From: Bacteroidota bacterium | GTDB lineage: Bacteria; Bacteroidota; Bacteroidia; B-17B0; Aurantibacillaceae | Length of the DNA stretch: 64,000 nucleotides | Assembly (NCBI GenBank): GCA_013298715.1 | Contig: JAAFIQ010000001.1 | Coordinates: 1-64,000 of the forward strand | Reading direction: 5' to 3' | Part shown: positions 155-6,844 of the stretch, in pieces | How the letters are laid out: each line of letters begins with the position of its first letter | How positions within the stretch are numbered: position 1 is the first letter of the stretch | Made by a program: the position numbers and the translations under genes | Notes under the pieces: model-generated | Told to the model about the DNA's origin: nothing | Database searches by the model: none | The model's input: the letters and a program-made list of their open reading frames with translations, nothing else

Positions 155-290
155 TATTACGTTTAGGTCGATACGTTGTGGTCGATGCGTTAAGGTCGAG
201 GACGAGATTAACATAACGTGCTTGCCGTGTGTCGGCCATTAAATGAAAAAACTTTATAGTAAAGATGTCTTAACGCACCACGCAATGAGA

Positions 291-420
291 GCTAACGGTT
301 GGCGGCTTTGCGAAGAAGCGGATTTCGGAGCACTAAACTGTCAACATACCACAAAAGCTGATGCGAGGTAGAATGTTCAATTAGCCACTGAACCCGCTTT
401 TTTGCAAAACCGCTGTTAGC
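291..420. repeat. attC-like / MITE-like imperfect palindrome
   Basis: The element starts with GCTAAC (291-296) and ends with GTTAGC (415-420). The outer arms pair imperfectly: GCGGCTTTGCGAAGAAGCGG on the left resembles the reverse complement of the right arm, GCGGTTTTGCAAAAAAGCGG. Total length (130 bp) and the AAC...GTT ends resemble integron attC recombination sites, although the flanking bases do not fit the RYYYAAC/GTTRRRY consensus exactly. A non-autonomous mobile repeat is an equally good explanation. It lies 135 bp downstream of the R-M operon. Confidence 0.5.
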
Positions 421-555
421 ACTTCGCCCTTCTTTTCTGTCGTTGTTGTTCGCTGTCATTTCGTATCTGTCTTGGTGCTGTTGCTTGGTGGCTCTTTTGC
501 TGTTTTTTGCTTGGCTTTGAGCGGTTGGAAAAACTGCAAATGTGCCACCAAATGT

Positions 556-1368
556 TTAGGTGTTTACAGAATGATATATTGCCTTTTCTTCTAAAAACAT
601 TCTTAGTTGCTCGTCTTGTTGTAGCAACTTTTCAGAATAAACGACTTTACCGTTTATAGATATTCCGTTTATTCTGTTTTGAGCAATTTCAAAATATACT
701 GGGCTAATTTCAAAACCAATGAAATTTCGTTTAAGTCTTTTGGCTACAACTCCTGTCGTTCCGCTTCCTGTAAATGGGTCAAGAATTGTGTCGCCTTGTT
801 TGCTACCTAACAAAATAATTCTTTCTATAAGTGTTTCGGGTTTTTCGGTTGGATGCGAAGTTTTGTGTCTTTCTGCATTTATTTCCCAAAGGTTTCGCAT
901 TTGTTTTCCTCCATTTATCATTTTTGCAGTGTCGTAATCAAAGTAATATTTCTTTGATTTACTAGCAATCCAAATTAGCTCTGTCGATAGTGCAAGACGA
1001 TTTTTTGACAATAACGGTGCAGCATTTCTTTTGAACCAAATTACATCATTAACAATCCATAAGTTTAATTTTTTCAAAATTACACCTATTGAGGGGTGAT
1101 TGTGCAAAGTTCCCGAAATCCAAATTGTTCCGTCATCTGCTAAAACTCGGATACATTCTTTTACCCACGTTTCGTTAAACTCGTGAATATCTTCAATTAT
1201 ATCCCAATCGCCTTTGTCACAAGTAACCATTTTTCCGCTTTGTACGGTTTGAAATGTTGCTCCCGATAAATTATAAGGTGGGTCAGCAAAAATTTGATTG
1301 ACACTTCCCGAAGGAATTTTTTTCAGAAGTTCAATACAGTGTCTGAGTTGTAATTTTATATCAGACAT
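556..1368 (-). CDS. DNA methyltransferase (N6-adenine/N4-cytosine type) of the R-M locus
   Basis: 270 aa. Transfers a methyl group from S-adenosylmethionine to a DNA base to protect host DNA from the cognate nuclease. The catalytic motif DPPY is at residues 29-32 and the SAM-binding motif DPFTGSGTTG at about 197-206, with HPTEKPETLIERI before it; this order (motif IV first, motif I last) is that of the beta-class N-4/N-6 methylase family. It is the last gene of the minus-strand R-M operon and its ATG overlaps the end of a decayed second methyltransferase. No lesion is visible. Target base and recognition sequence cannot be read from the sequence. Confidence 0.9.
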   Translation of the reverse strand: MSDIKLQLRHCIELLKKIPSGSVNQIFADPPYNLSGATFQTVQSGKMVTCDKGDWDIIEDIHEFNETWVKECIRVLADDGTIWISGTLHNHPSIGVILKKLNLWIVNDVIWFKRNAAPLLSKNRLALSTELIWIASKSKKYYFDYDTAKMINGGKQMRNLWEINAERHKTSHPTEKPETLIERIILLGSKQGDTILDPFTGSGTTGVVAKRLKRNFIGFEISPVYFEIAQNRINGISINGKVVYSEKLLQQDEQLRMFLEEKAIYHSVNT

Positions 1369-1879
1369 ATTCTTTCTTTTTTGGGTTTAAACGTTCTTCT
1401 GCTATTTCTAAATAGTCAGAATTATTCTCTATTCCAATCCAATTTCTTTTTAATTTTTTTGCGACAAAACCCATTGTTCCTGATCCAAAAAATGGGTCAA
1501 GTACAATGTCTTTTTCATTTGAAGATGCTTTAATTATTAGTTCTAAAAGTCATTCAGGTTTTTGTGTTGGGTGTAAAGCACGACCATTTTCTCCTCGCAA
1601 TCTTTCTTTTCCTTGAACGATTGGAAGTTCAATAAAATCAAGGAAATCTCGCATTTGCTTATCTATTCCCTCTTTGGTTTTGTTTGGGTTGAATTTTTTA
1701 ACTTCATCATAATTGAAAACCCAATTTTTCCCTTTCACAAACCAACAAACAAATTCTGTTGAATGTGTGTAAGTTCGTTTTGTAATATTTGGCATTGCAT
1801 TTACTTTATACCAAGTCAAAATATTGTTAAGTTTAAAACCAATTTTTTTTGCTTCAACTAAAATTTCCTAAATCTTCAT
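1361..1879 (-). pseudogene. Decayed second DNA methyltransferase
   Basis: A start codon (1879-1877) overlaps the stop of the upstream gene and is followed by only two codons before an in-frame TAG. The frame then continues with methyltransferase sequence (KKIGFKLNNILTWYK, THSTEFVCWFVKGKNW, HPTQKPE). The N-terminal part that should carry the DPPY catalytic motif is missing. A second lesion, TGA at 1552-1550, interrupts the gene immediately after HPTQKPE. Beyond it the frame remains open to 1361 and encodes VLDPFFGSGTMGFVAKKLKR, the SAM-binding motif. Two independent lesions and the lost catalytic motif mean it cannot be active. It is a relative, not a duplicate, of the intact methyltransferase downstream. 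Confidence 0.88.
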
Positions 1880-2106
1880 TTGTAATAATCAGGATTAAAT
1901 ACTCCTTCTGTTGTGAACTTATCAAGTTTATCAATGATTGCATTTGCATTAACATCAAATCCCATTTTTTCAAGAGAATAAATAACACTTACTAATTTAT
2001 GGTATGATTTTTCTCCAGATTTTGAAAGTCCTGTATATTCTAAATATGGCTTTTTTGATCCAAGTTTTTGTAAAACTTCAAATAAAGCATTGCTATCTTC
2101 CAACAT
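1876..2106 (-). CDS. Small hypothetical protein in the R-M operon
   Basis: 76 aa, charged, predicted mostly helical, no signal peptide or membrane segment. Not recognised. Its start overlaps the end of the PLD-type nuclease gene by 14 bp and its stop overlaps the start codon of the decayed methyltransferase, so it is translationally coupled inside the operon. It could be a small accessory subunit, or the remnant C-terminal domain of a larger protein; the sequence does not decide between these. Confidence 0.55.
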   Translation of the reverse strand: MLEDSNALFEVLQKLGSKKPYLEYTGLSKSGEKSYHKLVSVIYSLEKMGFDVNANAIIDKLDKFTTEGVFNPDYYK

Positions 2107-3019
2107 AATTTTTAGCTTTTTCGGTTAGACAATAAAGACCTCTGCCTGTTCTTCTAAAAAGTTGCATATTATCTTTGTGAGTGCTGTTTTCTTCGTGTTT
2201 ATTTAGTTCTCCTCTGATTGTATTGAAAATCGTATCCATTTTCATATTAAGATTTTGTTTCTCAATTATTTGAGGTAATTTTTCATACATTTCTTCGAGT
2301 GAAACTTCACTTATTCCATTTTTACTTTTCTCTGAAATAAATTCAATGATAACTTTTTTCAATGATGGAACTGTTCCCGGCAGTTTTTGTTCTTCGTTCC
2401 TAAGTTGTTTTAATTCGGATTGTATTCCTTTATCAAGAATATTCTCTGATTTCTCAATTTCCTTTTTAATTCCACCATATCTTTCAATATAATCTTTGCT
2501 TGGTTTAAAAATACTGTCAGTAAATTTTATTTCATTGTAAATCGCTTGTAATTGAGAAAAATATTTGGGTTTATCTTCTCTAAAAACGCTATTTACTTCA
2601 AAATTTGAAGTTAAACCACCGCTTGTCAAATTTGAAGAACCTACAATAGAGGTAAATTTTGTATTTTTTGAGAGTGCAGTTTCAAACAAATAAATTTTTG
2701 GATGAAATATTAAATCATTGTAATTATCCCGTTTATCTCCAAAACAATAAAAACTAAAATTCTTATTTGTGTCTTCTATCTCTTTCAAAGCTAATAATGC
2801 TTTTGTATCAGTCGTTTTAAAATCAAGACCTGCAATAAGTTCAATTTGAGCATTATTGACATTCATTGCATATTCAAAAGATTTATAAATTTCATCAATA
2901 CCTGTTCTTCTCACAAATGCAATCGCCATTTTGACTTGTGTACTTTCAATCAGTTCACTTTTCAAAACATCAACGAGTGAATAATTTGTATTGGATAATA
3001 TTTGAATTTTTTCTGACAT
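2093..3019 (-). CDS. Phospholipase-D-superfamily nuclease, probable restriction endonuclease subunit
   Basis: 308 aa. The N-terminal ~200 residues look like a PLD-fold nuclease with a single active-site motif: H106-P-K108 (FHPKIYLF), then GSSNLTSGGL (N130) and an acidic E141. This arrangement matches the metal-independent PLD restriction enzymes of the BfiI/NgoFVII type, known to cut as dimers with one HKD-like motif per chain. The last ~90 residues (about 215-308) look like a winged-helix/HARE-type DNA-binding domain rather than the B3-like domain of BfiI. The gene lies 3 bp after the AlwI-like gene and overlaps the next small ORF. No truncation is seen. Its role in restriction is inferred from motif plus context. 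Confidence 0.75.
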   Translation of the reverse strand: MSEKIQILSNTNYSLVDVLKSELIESTQVKMAIAFVRRTGIDEIYKSFEYAMNVNNAQIELIAGLDFKTTDTKALLALKEIEDTNKNFSFYCFGDKRDNYNDLIFHPKIYLFETALSKNTKFTSIVGSSNLTSGGLTSNFEVNSVFREDKPKYFSQLQAIYNEIKFTDSIFKPSKDYIERYGGIKKEIEKSENILDKGIQSELKQLRNEEQKLPGTVPSLKKVIIEFISEKSKNGISEVSLEEMYEKLPQIIEKQNLNMKMDTIFNTIRGELNKHEENSTHKDNMQLFRRTGRGLYCLTEKAKNYVGR

Positions 3020-3022
3020 AAA

Positions 3023-4111
3023 TTAAGCGGCAATTTTATTTTCAAAAATTAATTGTCTTGTGTTCAAATCTCTGTACTCCTCAAAAAGAGAAAGTTTTTT
3101 GATGAACATATACAGAACGTGGAAGTTTACAACAAAAATTTCTTCATCTTCTGAAGAAATCAAAGATGTATTTTCAAAAAATCCAATGATTTTTTTCCAA
3201 TTAGAAGAGTTGTTTAAAGCAGTTGTGTCGAACAAACTTTCTAAGTAATAACTCGGTTTTTTGCTTGAAATATCTTTGTGTCTTGATTTTAATTTGTCTT
3301 GAATAAACTTTTTCTTTTTCGCTTCATTCCAAATTTCTTTATTCAACCAATAGGAATAAATGTCGTGAAAAAGTGCAATTGTTTCGTTTTTAAATGTGTT
3401 TCCTTTTCCGTGCGGAAGTAAAGCATACAAGAGTTCTTTTAGTTCATTTTTATCAGAAATACTATGAGTAGCAAAAAAATGCGTAGCATTTTTTGCTACA
3501 ATATTTGTATTCTCTGAATTGAGTGCAGATTGATAAACAGTTTCTTTATAATCCGAATGTTTTTTGTAGTTTTTTATGTTGTCAATCAGTTCTTTTTTTG
3601 TTTGTGAACCTGACCAAACATAAGTAACAAAGTCAATCGGTAATTCGTTGTTAAATTCAATGATTGAGTAGATTAGCGACAGCAAAGGAAGAACTTCAAA
3701 ATCATTTTGCTGGTATTTCAAAAACTGTTTTAGGTAAGTAAAACTTTCATTTGAAATATCAATTTCGTTAGTTTCAAAATTTAAAGAATTTGCCAATAAT
3801 TCTAATCCTGCAGTTGTAATAATTCGTTCGTCTGTTGTGAATCCTAACTGCGAAATGAATCCTGTCTTTACTCTTACATCTTTATCAGAACTAACTTTGT
3901 TATCTGTTTTAATGTCAAAAATTCCAAGTTCGCCTAACAATGCCCCAAACTTTGATTGGTCTGTTGTTTCCCAATTTTTATTTTGTTTTCTGAACTCAAC
4001 AAGTGCGTTCAAAATTTTGACATAGGTTGCTCTCGGGTCGCTTAATCTTGCTCCTGTGTTGCCAAATGAAATTAAGCCACTATTTGCTGTTATTTTTTTG
4101 AAATCGTTCAT
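3023..4111 (-). CDS. Putative AlwI-like restriction protein (DNA-recognition part?)
   Basis: 362 aa, soluble. The first ~110 residues contain SFGNTGARLSDPR, a helical segment with a Q...FG.LL pattern, then an LGF...ITTAGLELL segment. From memory this resembles the N-terminal part of AlwI-family type IIS enzymes. No clear PD-(D/E)xK nuclease motif could be found in the remainder, and the chain is shorter than the AlwI enzymes I recall. It sits between the XRE regulator (1-bp gap) and the PLD nuclease (3-bp gap), which suggests it supplies recognition while the PLD protein cuts. Family assignment is tentative. Confidence 0.5.
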   Translation of the reverse strand: MNDFKKITANSGLISFGNTGARLSDPRATYVKILNALVEFRKQNKNWETTDQSKFGALLGELGIFDIKTDNKVSSDKDVRVKTGFISQLGFTTDERIITTAGLELLANSLNFETNEIDISNESFTYLKQFLKYQQNDFEVLPLLSLIYSIIEFNNELPIDFVTYVWSGSQTKKELIDNIKNYKKHSDYKETVYQSALNSENTNIVAKNATHFFATHSISDKNELKELLYALLPHGKGNTFKNETIALFHDIYSYWLNKEIWNEAKKKKFIQDKLKSRHKDISSKKPSYYLESLFDTTALNNSSNWKKIIGFFENTSLISSEDEEIFVVNFHVLYMFIKKLSLFEEYRDLNTRQLIFENKIAA

Positions 4112-4112
4112 A

Positions 4113-4439
4113 TTAAAATTTCAGCTCACCTTGTTTTACGTTGGTGCTTTTCAGATAATTTACTTTTTCTTCTGCTACAATTAGCGTTTCAATAGAACAA
4201 TTATAAGCATACATTTTCTTTGCGAATTGGTCTCCAAAATATTCTACTTTCAATTTTTCAATGTCAAGGTCTAAAGCGTTTGCCAAATTGTCTAAACATT
4301 TTTCGTCAAACTCTTTTTTGCCTGTTTCGATTTTGCTCAAAGCACCTGAGTCGATGCCAAGTTTTGCACCTAATTGAGTTAGAGTTAATCCTTTTTCGGT
4401 TCTTAATTTTCTAATGTATTCACCAAAATTTGTTTCCAT
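4113..4439 (-). CDS. XRE-family transcriptional regulator of the R-M operon
   Basis: 108 aa. Residues about 8-62 form a classical helix-turn-helix of the Cro/C1 type (IRKLRTEKGLTLTQLGAKLG, then ALSKIETGKKEF). Such proteins at the head of R-M operons (C proteins) usually delay or limit nuclease expression. It is the first gene of the operon, and the AlwI-like gene starts 1 bp after its stop. Direct and inverted repeats that could be its operators lie directly upstream and overlap the probable promoter. The ~45-residue C-terminal extension beyond the HTH is longer than in minimal C proteins and has no obvious family. Confidence 0.85.
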   Translation of the reverse strand: METNFGEYIRKLRTEKGLTLTQLGAKLGIDSGALSKIETGKKEFDEKCLDNLANALDLDIEKLKVEYFGDQFAKKMYAYNCSIETLIVAEEKVNYLKSTNVKQGELKF

Positions 4440-4500: not shown

Positions 4501-4599
4501 AACTTTTTAAAGACAAATTTTAAAGTATGCTGGTATCCAAACTTAGAACAATAGTTTGACCTTTCAAAGGTACTTTTTTTAAGTTAATATACACACAGT

Positions 4600-4667
4600 C
4601 ATAAAACGGGAGGTAACTTTTTTTCTGCCCATAAAAGGCAGAGAAAAAAAGTTATCCTCGTTTTATG
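4600..4667 (-). terminator. Long imperfect hairpin at the 3' end of the IS transposase gene
   Basis: CATAAAACGGGAGGTAACTT... at 4600 pairs with ...AAGTTATCCTCGTTTTATG ending at 4667, giving two ~30-bp arms with a few mismatches and a short CATAAAA loop. The structure includes the orfB stop codon and lies before the IS end. It could end IS transcription or shield the transposase from read-through from outside. Confidence 0.55.
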
Positions 4668-5514
4668 CAGCTGTTTTAATTTCATTATACATTTCTCTTG
4701 GTGTTTTGTATTTCATTGTTTCATGTGGTCTATCTTGATTGTAAAATTTAAAATATTTTTTAATTCCTGTTTCTAATTCTGTTACAGCTGTATAGCATTT
4801 CAAGTAAATATCCTCGTACTTAACACTCCCCCACAAGCGCTCTATCCAAATATTATCAAGCGCTCTGCCTTTGCCGTCCATACTTATTTTTATGTTATTG
4901 TTTTTTAAGTAACTTGTATAATCTTCACTTGTAAATTGGCTTCCTTGGTCGGTATTTACTATTTGCGGTTTGCCATAATCAGCAACCGCTTCTTGTAACA
5001 CACCTAAACACCATTCAGCTGTCATCGTATTACTTAATCCCCATCCTACAACAAAACGTGTGTGAGCGTCTATTATAGCGCATAAATACATAAACCCACG
5101 AGGCATAGCAATGTAAGTAATATCTGTACTCCATACTTGATTTTTCTCAGTTATAGATAAGTTACGAAGTAAATATGGATATATTTTATGCTCTTTGTTT
5201 CTAACACTTGTATTTGGTGTACGATAAATAGTTTGCCAATTCATTACTTTCATTAATCCACTCACTCGCTTTCTACAGGCTTTAAATCCTGCTTTTTGAA
5301 GTATCACACACAACTTTCGTGAACCATAAAAAGGGGTTTCAAAATATTGTTTGTCTAAATATGCCATAATTAATAAGTTTTCCTCACTCTCGGTGGCAGG
5401 CGTCTAGTATACACTACTTCTACTAATTGCTAACAAGACACATTGAGCAGATAAACTTAAGTGAGGGTATGAAACGTCTATCAATGTTCGTTTTTCAGAT
5501 AAACTCTTTACCAT
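4663..5514 (-). pseudogene. IS3-family transposase OrfB (DDE integrase), nonsense-interrupted
   Basis: The reading frame begins at ATG 5514-5512, overlapping the end of orfA, and would encode 283 aa. Codon 37 is TAG (5406-5404), inside a motif that normally reads SSVYY; sequence on both sides is normal (ISRSSVY before, ESEENLLIM after). The part after the stop, from a possible restart at 5367, carries the full DDE core: D in WSTDITYI, D in NTDQGSQF, E in IWIERLWGSVKYE. The OrfAB fusion needed for transposition would end at the stop unless it is read through. Confidence 0.85.
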
Positions 5515-5786
5515 AACTTTTTTTTTAGAAAATCATTCTCAACTTTTAACTTCCCTATTTGAGCATACAATTCGTTTGCTTCTGATTCGGTAATTTTATT
5601 TGTTTTGGTTCCTTTTGAAAAATAATTACTAACATTGTCTAATACTAATTTTTTCCAATTTTTTACAACACTTGGATGAACTTCATACTTACGTGCGATT
5701 TCTTCGATAGTTTGTTTTTCTTTTATTGCCTCTAATCCAACTTTTGTTTTGAATTCGATACTGTGATTCCTTTTTGTTGTACTCAT
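5508..5786 (-). CDS. IS3-family transposase OrfA
   Basis: 92 aa. Contains a helix-turn-helix for binding the IS ends (TIEEIARKYEVHPSVVKNWK, about residues 26-45) and a C-terminal leucine-zipper-like coiled coil (ANELYAQIGKLKVENDFLKK). The gene ends in a slippery A9G stretch (5526-5517 on the minus strand) where a -1 ribosomal frameshift would join it to orfB in the known manner of the IS3 family. It appears intact, so a repressor-like OrfA may still be made although OrfAB cannot. Confidence 0.88.
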   Translation of the reverse strand: MSTTKRNHSIEFKTKVGLEAIKEKQTIEEIARKYEVHPSVVKNWKKLVLDNVSNYFSKGTKTNKITESEANELYAQIGKLKVENDFLKKKLW

Positions 5787-5899
5787 CTTTTTTTAGTTTA
5801 AGTTAGTAATAATTGTCGCTTAAACTACTGTGTTAATTTTGGGGACCAGCATACTAAACGCTTAATTCACTTTTATTATAACACAAAAATTCAAACTTG

Positions 5900-5962: not shown

Positions 5963-6844
5963 ATGGAAAGATTAAACGTTTTAAAAACATATAAAATATA
6001 TATTGGTGGTGCTTTTCCGAGAACAGAGAGCGGGCGCTATTACGAACTTAAAAACAAAAAAGGGAACACCATTGCCAATATATGTTTGAGTAGTCGTAAA
6101 GATTTTAGAAATGCAGTAGTTGCCGCACGTGGCGCTTTTGGCGCGTGGAGTGGACGAACGGCATTTAACCGTAGTCAAATTTTGTACCGTATTGCCGAGA
6201 TGCTTGAAGGCAGAAAATCGCAATTTATAGAAGAGCTACAATTGCAAGGGCTAACAGCTGTGCAAGCAAAAAACGAAGTGTTGCAAAGTATAGATAGATT
6301 GGTGTATTACGCCGGATGGTGCGATAAATACATGCAAATTTACAGTTCCGTAAATCCAGTTGCCAGTTCTCATTTTAATTTTTCAGTGCCTGAGCCAACA
6401 GGCGTTGTAAGTGTTATAGCGCCAGAATCAACCTCGTTGTTAGGTTTAGTTAGTGTTATTGCACCAATTATTTGTGGTGGAAATGTGTGTGTGGTGTTAG
6501 CTTCAGAAAGTTTGCCTTTATGTGCTATTACCTTTGCTGAAGTGCTTGCAACAAGTGATTTACCTGGAGGCGTAGTAAATATTTTGACTGGTACAAGTAA
6601 TGAATTACATGCTCATTTTTCTAACCACATGGATGTAAATGCGGTAATTTATTGCAGAAACAACGAAAAAGAAAAGCAAACTATTTTTGAAAACGCATCG
6701 TTAAATGTAAAGCGTGCTTTTGATTGGAATAAAAAATGGGAAGATAATACAAATCAAAATCCGTATTTAATTTTGGACACACAAGAAATTAAAACAACTT
6801 GGCACCCTATCGAAAACATTGGTATTGGTGGGGCTAAGTATTGA
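5963..6844 (+). CDS. Short aldehyde-dehydrogenase-like protein lacking the catalytic domain
   Basis: 293 aa against about 480 for normal ALDH. The sequence follows the NAD-binding half (YIGGAFPRTESGRYYELKNK, AFGAWSGRTAFNRSQILYRI, VPEPTGVVSVIAPES) up to LPGGVVNILTG, then ends in an unrelated tail. The catalytic region with the nucleophilic cysteine (GQxC) is absent and the Rossmann part has replacements (VIAPEST where active enzymes usually have AFNFP or PWNFP). From memory, short ALDH-like proteins occur beside full-length ALDH and deoC in some Bacteroidota; here the upstream partner is missing and an IS sits there instead. It may be a non-catalytic partner or scaffold, or a gene in decay. 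Start ATG supported by the upstream promoter box. Confidence 0.7.
   Translation: MERLNVLKTYKIYIGGAFPRTESGRYYELKNKKGNTIANICLSSRKDFRNAVVAARGAFGAWSGRTAFNRSQILYRIAEMLEGRKSQFIEELQLQGLTAVQAKNEVLQSIDRLVYYAGWCDKYMQIYSSVNPVASSHFNFSVPEPTGVVSVIAPESTSLLGLVSVIAPIICGGNVCVVLASESLPLCAITFAEVLATSDLPGGVVNILTGTSNELHAHFSNHMDVNAVIYCRNNEKEKQTIFENASLNVKRAFDWNKKWEDNTNQNPYLILDTQEIKTTWHPIENIGIGGAKY

Follow-up and report, generated by a model that had tools for sequence, protein, structure and literature searches.

Does the separation of a recognition protein from an unrelated nuclease reflect a restriction enzyme designed to work in two parts, or the fragments of one that once worked as a whole? The question is raised by a locus near the start of a 64,000-nucleotide stretch of DNA (hereafter, the window) from a Bacteroidota bacterium (GTDB lineage Bacteria; Bacteroidota; Bacteroidia; B-17B0; Aurantibacillaceae; GenBank assembly GCA_013298715.1). 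The window covers positions 1 to 64,000 of contig C1 (JAAFIQ010000001.1), and the source genome comprises 4.0 Mb in 46 contigs. A preliminary description placed a restriction-modification (R-M) locus on the minus strand at 556–4439: an XRE regulator, an AlwI-like protein of 362 residues, a nuclease of the phospholipase D (PLD) family, a 76-residue protein and two methyltransferases, together seen as a type IIS-like system of unusual split architecture. Sequence reading and family searches find the genes where they had been placed (Table 1), and a putative recognition half is indeed encoded apart from the PLD nuclease. As a design, the arrangement is best explained otherwise: we consider it very probable that it results from recombination in an AlwI-family system and is not an evolved two-subunit restriction enzyme.

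To judge from its relatives, the 362-residue protein is a truncated N-terminal fragment of an AlwI-family enzyme (AlwI site: GGATC 4/5), cut before the nuclease domain. A scan of genome contigs with the endonuclease, R, returned five related loci, which makes six with the window: L002 (Flavobacterium urocaniciphilum), L003 (Amniculibacterium aquaticum, a named isolate genome), L004, L005 (Candidatus Kapaibacterium, the same record as genome G279) and L006. Four of the six loci with the N-terminal half (L002, L004, L005 and L006) encode R as one chain of 669–672 residues, followed by the methyltransferases M1 and M2, and have no PLD gene. Codons 1–354 of the window gene share 84–91% identity with full-length R of L002, L004 and L005, and 69% with that of L006. 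Immediately 5' of intact R, an open reading frame (ORF) occupies the regulator position in L002, L004 and L006; none is listed for L005, where homology to the window begins only at window position 4266.

The AlwI relationship suggested earlier holds, for a fragment rather than a whole protein. The R of L002 matches the RE_AlwI family (PF09491) over residues 87–631 with 123.1 bits (cut-off 23.1; E 2e-35), and aligns end to end (residues 8–645, 24%) with plasmid-borne proteins annotated as AlwI; plasmid matches to full-length R fall in 51 records, 20 of them listed, all below 60% identity. The 362-residue protein does not reach the cut-off of the PF09491 profile, with no Pfam family at E ≤ 5, and has no match in NCBIfam or PADLOC (E ≤ 1) or PHROGs (E ≤ 0.01). 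Its homology to the AlwI family emerges with HHalign against eight AlwI proteins, at residues 15–153 (probability 86.3, score 51.1; 14.8 for the reversed control and at most 24.9 for 50 shuffled templates). AlwI-family proteins themselves (PF09491) occur in 8 of 247 genomes of the phylum, all eight in open frames of 557–596 residues and none split. A profile of the R half, searched in 390 phylum genomes, matched three: the window, G279 and a match of 19.5 bits interrupted by a stop codon; in these phylum-wide searches, at most five candidates per genome were scored.

What the window protein has lost is the C-terminal domain of PD-(D/E)XK type. Full-length R aligns with the C-termini of AlwI-family proteins at residues 491–632 (HHalign), and a four-protein profile of it matches N.BspD6I chains only around residues 438–625, with a best E of 1.1e-7; both regions lie entirely in the missing part. 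An AlphaFold model of full-length R had a mean pLDDT (the predicted per-residue confidence) of 38.7 and was not used. We rejected the possibility of a hidden nuclease in the 362-residue protein, given the missing family matches and a best phmmer match in the PDB at E 0.63, as well as that of a nuclease half relocated elsewhere: the source genome contains no PF09491 match anywhere. The N-terminal half that is kept is presumed to be the DNA-recognition half.

The position of the cut is informative. Alignment to the intact loci breaks off at window position 3049, R codon 354 being the last one shared, and is regained at about 1867, within M1. In L003 the homology of R ends at the very same codon, followed by a tail of eight codons (YPQNNIAA, where the window has IFENKIAA) and then by a PLD gene. 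The left junction is thus common to the window and L003, whose genomes belong to different genera and differ at about 11% of nucleotides, and two of the six loci holding the R half pair it with PLD; homologues of the two genes do co-occur. An assembly artefact or a chimera near the contig end would suit a window that begins at the contig start, and is nevertheless extremely improbable: L003, a named isolate genome, independently shows the same left junction and the succession R half, PLD, small ORF.

After the PLD gene, L003 encodes a 72-residue protein, a Fic protein (PF02661, E 1.5e-18) and a 5'-truncated M2; the gene starts overlap, both between PLD and the 72-residue ORF and between the latter and Fic. 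L003 is 98.6% identical to L002 up to R codon 354 and 98.3% identical from about M2 codon 37–38 on, with PLD, the small gene and Fic placed between. A third locus, L041 of genome G658, consists of IS3-family pieces (below the family cut-off), the last 28–29 codons of PLD, a 77-residue protein, Fic and M2. Its right junction is the one of L003 and differs from that of the window. The small protein, of 76 residues in the window, thus has counterparts of 72 and 77 residues that Fic follows, as it does not in the window. Among 295 genomes of the class, the 76-residue protein matched in three: the window, G658 and one at E 0.0098. Two larger proteins, of 514 and 717 residues (L028 1–1543 and L042 1–2152), contain stretches weakly similar to it (29–31%, E 0.006 and 9e-5). 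PLD, the small protein and Fic thus resemble a module, acquired by AlwI-type loci and now undergoing erosion. Sliding identities did not locate the crossovers.

We propose the following course of events. The ancestor would have been a one-chain, type IIS-like system of the AlwI family, with an XRE regulator, an endonuclease of 669 residues and two methyltransferases, the endonuclease combining an N-terminal recognition half with a C-terminal nuclease domain of PD-(D/E)XK type. A foreign module of PLD, a 72–77-residue protein and Fic would then have recombined into it, replacing the nuclease half of R together with adjoining methyltransferase sequence. The replaced stretch would begin at R codon 355 in both the window and L003. 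In the window it would reach to about codon 110 of M1, with Fic, now absent, presumably lost; in L003 it would reach to about codon 37 of M2, with Fic present and a right junction as in G658. What remains would be a shortened recognition fragment that has an unrelated nuclease gene as its neighbour.

In the PLD nuclease, residues H106, K108, N130 and E141, pointed out previously, are invariant in all six aligned proteins, and both PF13091 and PF09565 recognize it, the latter with 33.4 bits (cut-off 23.8). On its own, the protein finds nothing in the PDB with phmmer (best E 0.55); relatives emerge only with a six-sequence profile, whose matches, together with those of Foldseek, include SauUSI, NgoAVII R, NucT, Nuc and BfiI. 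The predicted structure is mostly of fair to high confidence at residues 13–190, except for 96–104. The winged-helix tail proposed for the protein could not be substantiated: beyond residue 165, the sole hint of a domain is DUF7669 at E 0.033, below the cut-off, and residues 202–308 have a pLDDT below 50. Full-length relatives are scarce: PLD matched in 13 of 395 phylum genomes and in 5 of 40 genomes of the genus, full-length only in the window and partial in the others of the phylum set, and in 4 of 70 genomes of G658's family (the G658 stub and three partial matches). No PLD relatives were found among plasmids or viral contigs.

The modification side of the locus is equally incomplete. A type IIS-like system with two methyltransferases describes the proposed ancestor well; in the present window M1 is a pseudogene, and we rejected an intact two-methyltransferase system, only M2 being whole. 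The M1 remnant (about 1867–1361) keeps 167 C-terminal codons with an in-frame TGA and misses about 110 N-terminal codons, including DPPY; a longer alignment running past the junction counts two TGA and one TAG. Searching the source genome for M1 gives a single close match, the remnant itself (92%), and three others at 41–44%, one of which is M2. In L003, M1 is absent and M2 lacks about its first 37 codons, DPPY included. The M2 of L041 (7135–7833) equally lacks about 37 codons and DPPY, its new ATG overlapping the stop codon of Fic. Neither L003 nor G658 retains a complete methyltransferase at the locus.

These losses bear on whether the parts could still work together, the AlwI half recognizing DNA and recruiting PLD, together with the 76-residue protein, to cut, while M2 alone protects one strand. 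Such a split enzyme would require the R half to recruit PLD. It would account for the junction shared by the window and L003, where both ORFs are open and adjacent, and would employ a nuclease whose sequence and fold relatives include the restriction nucleases SauUSI, NgoAVII and BfiI. Without M1, and with an M2 deprived of DPPY, the L003 locus would leave a site-specific cutter unprotected, although methyltransferases encoded elsewhere could in principle protect. Furthermore, M1 is dead in the window, and G658 has lost most of PLD and has no R half before the PLD remnant. We therefore hold a functional split enzyme to be improbable, and marginally more so a natural nuclease swap, in which the freed AlwI half, PLD and a small adaptor would act in trans as a split enzyme and the methyltransferase pieces would take on a new role.

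Selection was estimated from the ratio of nonsynonymous to synonymous divergence (omega; dN and dS), pairwise by the Nei-Gojobori method and per branch by a home-made codon branch model on assumed trees. PLD is under strong purifying selection: between the window and L003, dS is 0.55 and dN 0.022, a pairwise omega of 0.04 (0.02–0.04 over both methods). Fic is constrained as well, with a pairwise omega of 0.08 between L003 and L041 (0.06–0.08 over both methods), and the small protein less so, at 0.14–0.47 (pairwise). Since L002 and L003 are near-identical around the module and the PLD genes of the window and L003 are separated by a dS of 0.55, the module and its flanks were apparently exchanged in separate events.

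For the R half, pairwise omega is 0.17 between the window and L003, 0.08–0.14 between the window and intact loci and 0.06–0.10 among intact loci. On the L003 branch it rises to 0.62, which does not differ from 1 (2dlnL, twice the log-likelihood difference, of 0.3) and exceeds the background, or a single ratio, with a 2dlnL of 8.7; the R half thus looks near-neutral in L003, on few changes, with about six nonsynonymous and two synonymous codons clearly polarised. The L002 branch has an omega of 0.06. Both the constraint on PLD and the window R half, which lies below neutrality, speak for the split enzyme; the near-neutral appearance of the R half in L003 speaks against it.

Several of our own observations weigh against recombination as the full explanation. 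The R half and PLD are paired through an identical junction in two genomes of different genera, despite their distance. The native home of the PLD, small protein and Fic module was not found in the searches made. The R-half ORF of the window is still open, and its branch omega of 0.14 is below 1 (2dlnL 35) and not significantly different from a background of 0.09 (2dlnL 2.1). Finally, the 5'-truncated M2 of L041 has a branch omega of 0.008, unexpected for a long-dead gene; in that run two inner branches were zero and the M2 stretch begins at about codon 40. Either this truncation is recent or the gene still does something.

The values for the window can be read in the light of its broken M1. 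This remnant still shows an omega of 0.05 on the window branch (2dlnL 27.5 against 1), so a low omega on that branch mostly records the time before inactivation. The low omega of the window R half is therefore compatible with present function and does not show it. The open frame is not surprising either, as 47% of R-half frames stay open after 15 substitutions in a neutral simulation, and under 1% after 100. Restriction is most likely dead in the window, where M2 may still methylate one strand, and PLD with the small protein may act independently as a nuclease.

A question distinct from the origin of the locus is what works in it now. The module of PLD, small protein and Fic would act, or have acted, alone as a nuclease/Fic defence or toxin-type unit. 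Its being an active unit of this kind today, with the R-M fragments merely providing a promoter and a regulator, is compatible with an origin by recombination, and we regard it as a real, if rather doubtful, possibility. The overlapping gene starts (PLD with the 76-residue ORF in the window, and both pairs in L003), the low omega of PLD and Fic and the retained regulator are in its favour. Yet the module is incomplete in two of three loci, the window being without Fic and G658 without most of PLD, and Fic relatives of 72–81% identity have no adjoining PLD in six of six loci, one of which begins 182 bases before Fic.

Among these relatives, the Fic of 81% identity (L073, genome G789) comes after a stub of the small-protein gene, again without PLD. 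Nearby (L073 4702–6330), a pair of small genes, like a MazF-type toxin and antitoxin by eye, lies between repeated attC-like sequences. The other five loci (L074–L078), with Fic proteins 72–75% identical and no PLD, come from five genomes of the genus g316, in the window's own family; L075, which starts 182 bases before Fic, has a methyltransferase-like fragment after it. Neither Fic nor full-length R has relatives in viral contigs, and the module DNA of L003 has none on plasmids.

The surroundings of the intact and interrupted loci suggest how they travel. In L002 (2899–9868; L091), a tyrosine recombinase is followed by two ORFs, each with an attC-like site of about 134 bp after it, by the R-M locus and by three more sites on the far side. 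The recombinase matches NF040815 with 225.1 bits (cut-off 220), and the integron integrase family TIGR02249 at E 3.6e-63, below that family's own cut-off. Both limits of the block common to L002 and L003 (L003 5484–9964) lie at such sites: its start, 5484, precedes the upstream site's GTTATGC box by three bases, and its end, L003 9960, falls within the GTTATGT box of the downstream one. Apart from the module, hardly anything differs between the two loci within these limits, which suggests transfer of the R-M system as a single integron-like gene cassette. Our attC-like scan detected the site on the 5' side of L002 and the two of L003, of which the 5' one (L090) needed looser settings. By eye only, a 3' site was recognized in L002, as were those of L004; the scan gave no attC-like site in L005 and did not include L006.

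The window has an attC-like site on the 3' side only (DNA fold z of −3.16 on the plus strand and −1.59 on the minus strand), and the same scan picks up chance palindromes in AT-rich sequence as well, with five others in the window. On the 5' side, an IS3-family insertion sequence stands in place of the cassette border; it has terminal inverted repeats and a 234-residue ORF matching NF033516 (cut-off 160 bits). One end of this element (37 bp) recurs alone at 123–159, with no matching interior beside it. Elsewhere in the source genome there are two recombinases 63–64% identical to that of L002 (C45:2664–3485 and C40:862–1674); by the same scan, C45 has one attC-like site, at 667–798, and C40 none. 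Because the start of C45 (L087, bases 19–129) is 92.8% identical to window 194–304, beside the attC-like site, the window contig may border an integron-like array. Further upstream of the R-M locus, at 5963–6844, lies an ORF of 293 residues, presumably aldehyde dehydrogenase-like by eye and shorter than usual for that family.

Table 1 Features of the R-M locus and its borders in the window.
Feature	Coordinates	Strand	Basis
XRE/HTH_3 regulator of the AlwI-type R-M locus, 108 aa	4113..4439	-	PF01381, E 5.2e-11
Truncated AlwI-family endonuclease, 362 aa: N-terminal 354 codons and 8-aa foreign tail	3023..4111	-	Homology to full-length R
Left junction: new tail IFENKIAA and stop codon; intact-R homology ends at 3049	3023..3049	-	Alignments
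PLD-family nuclease, 308 aa, H106/K108/N130/E141	2093..3019	-	PF13091, E 2.4e-8; PF09565, E 3.5e-8
76-aa ORF, partner in the putative PLD/small/Fic module; start overlaps PLD stop	1876..2106	-	Counterparts in L003 and G658/L041
M1 methyltransferase pseudogene remnant, C-terminal 167 codons, TGA at 1550-1552	about 1361..1867	-	Alignments
M2 methyltransferase, complete, 270 aa, N6_N4_Mtase, DPPY and DPFTGSGTTG	556..1368	-	PF01555, E 2.6e-55
attC-like imperfect palindrome, 3' border of the R-M locus	290..421		Site scan, DNA fold z
IS3-family insertion sequence, just upstream of the regulator	4524..5856	-	Terminal inverted repeats; NF033516, 229.3 bits

How does the locus compare with known systems? 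It is closest to the type IIS R-M systems of the AlwI family (PF09491), with which it shares the N-terminal half of the endonuclease and whose one-chain enzyme with two methyltransferases is kept by its relatives. It differs in that R is without its nuclease half, M1 is a pseudogene and a PLD gene stands in the place of the nuclease domain. In AlwI itself, the two methyltransferases are described as joined in one chain (PMC4081073). In the BspD6I, BtsI and BsrDI heterodimers (type IIT), the large subunit is described as recognizing the site and cutting one strand, and the small subunit as cutting the other (PMC4081073). The catalytic domain of the full-length relatives does align with N.BspD6I, and the idea of a recogniser with a separate nuclease chain is common to both. 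However, the recognition fragment of the window has no catalytic domain, and its neighbour is a PLD-family protein of 308 residues, not a small second nuclease subunit.

With BfiI, NgoFVII and NgoAVII, the window protein shares the catalytic PLD core, with its PF09565 match and related sequence and fold. BfiI is described as combining PLD with a B3-like DNA-binding domain in a single chain (PMC4081073); no B3-like domain was found in the window PLD, though residues 202–308 could not be modelled. By both profile and Foldseek, the best match of the PLD core is SauUSI, a helicase-nuclease chain of 953 residues as compared with the 308 of the window protein. SauUSI is an ATP-dependent PLD nuclease. 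A limited literature search returned AlwI and PLD restriction together only in one review (PMC4081073), and nothing on attC sites or integrons with R-M systems in Bacteroidota, which does not show that either arrangement is unpublished.

The locus shows a modular restriction enzyme that loses its cutting half and lands beside an unrelated nuclease: it is a snapshot either of decay or of raw material from which a new enzyme could arise. It also calls for caution, as what appears from one sequence to be a split system can be a set of fragments. Finally, the Flavobacterium array, in which a whole R-M system is bounded by integron-type sites beside an integrase-like recombinase, points to one way in which such systems may spread.

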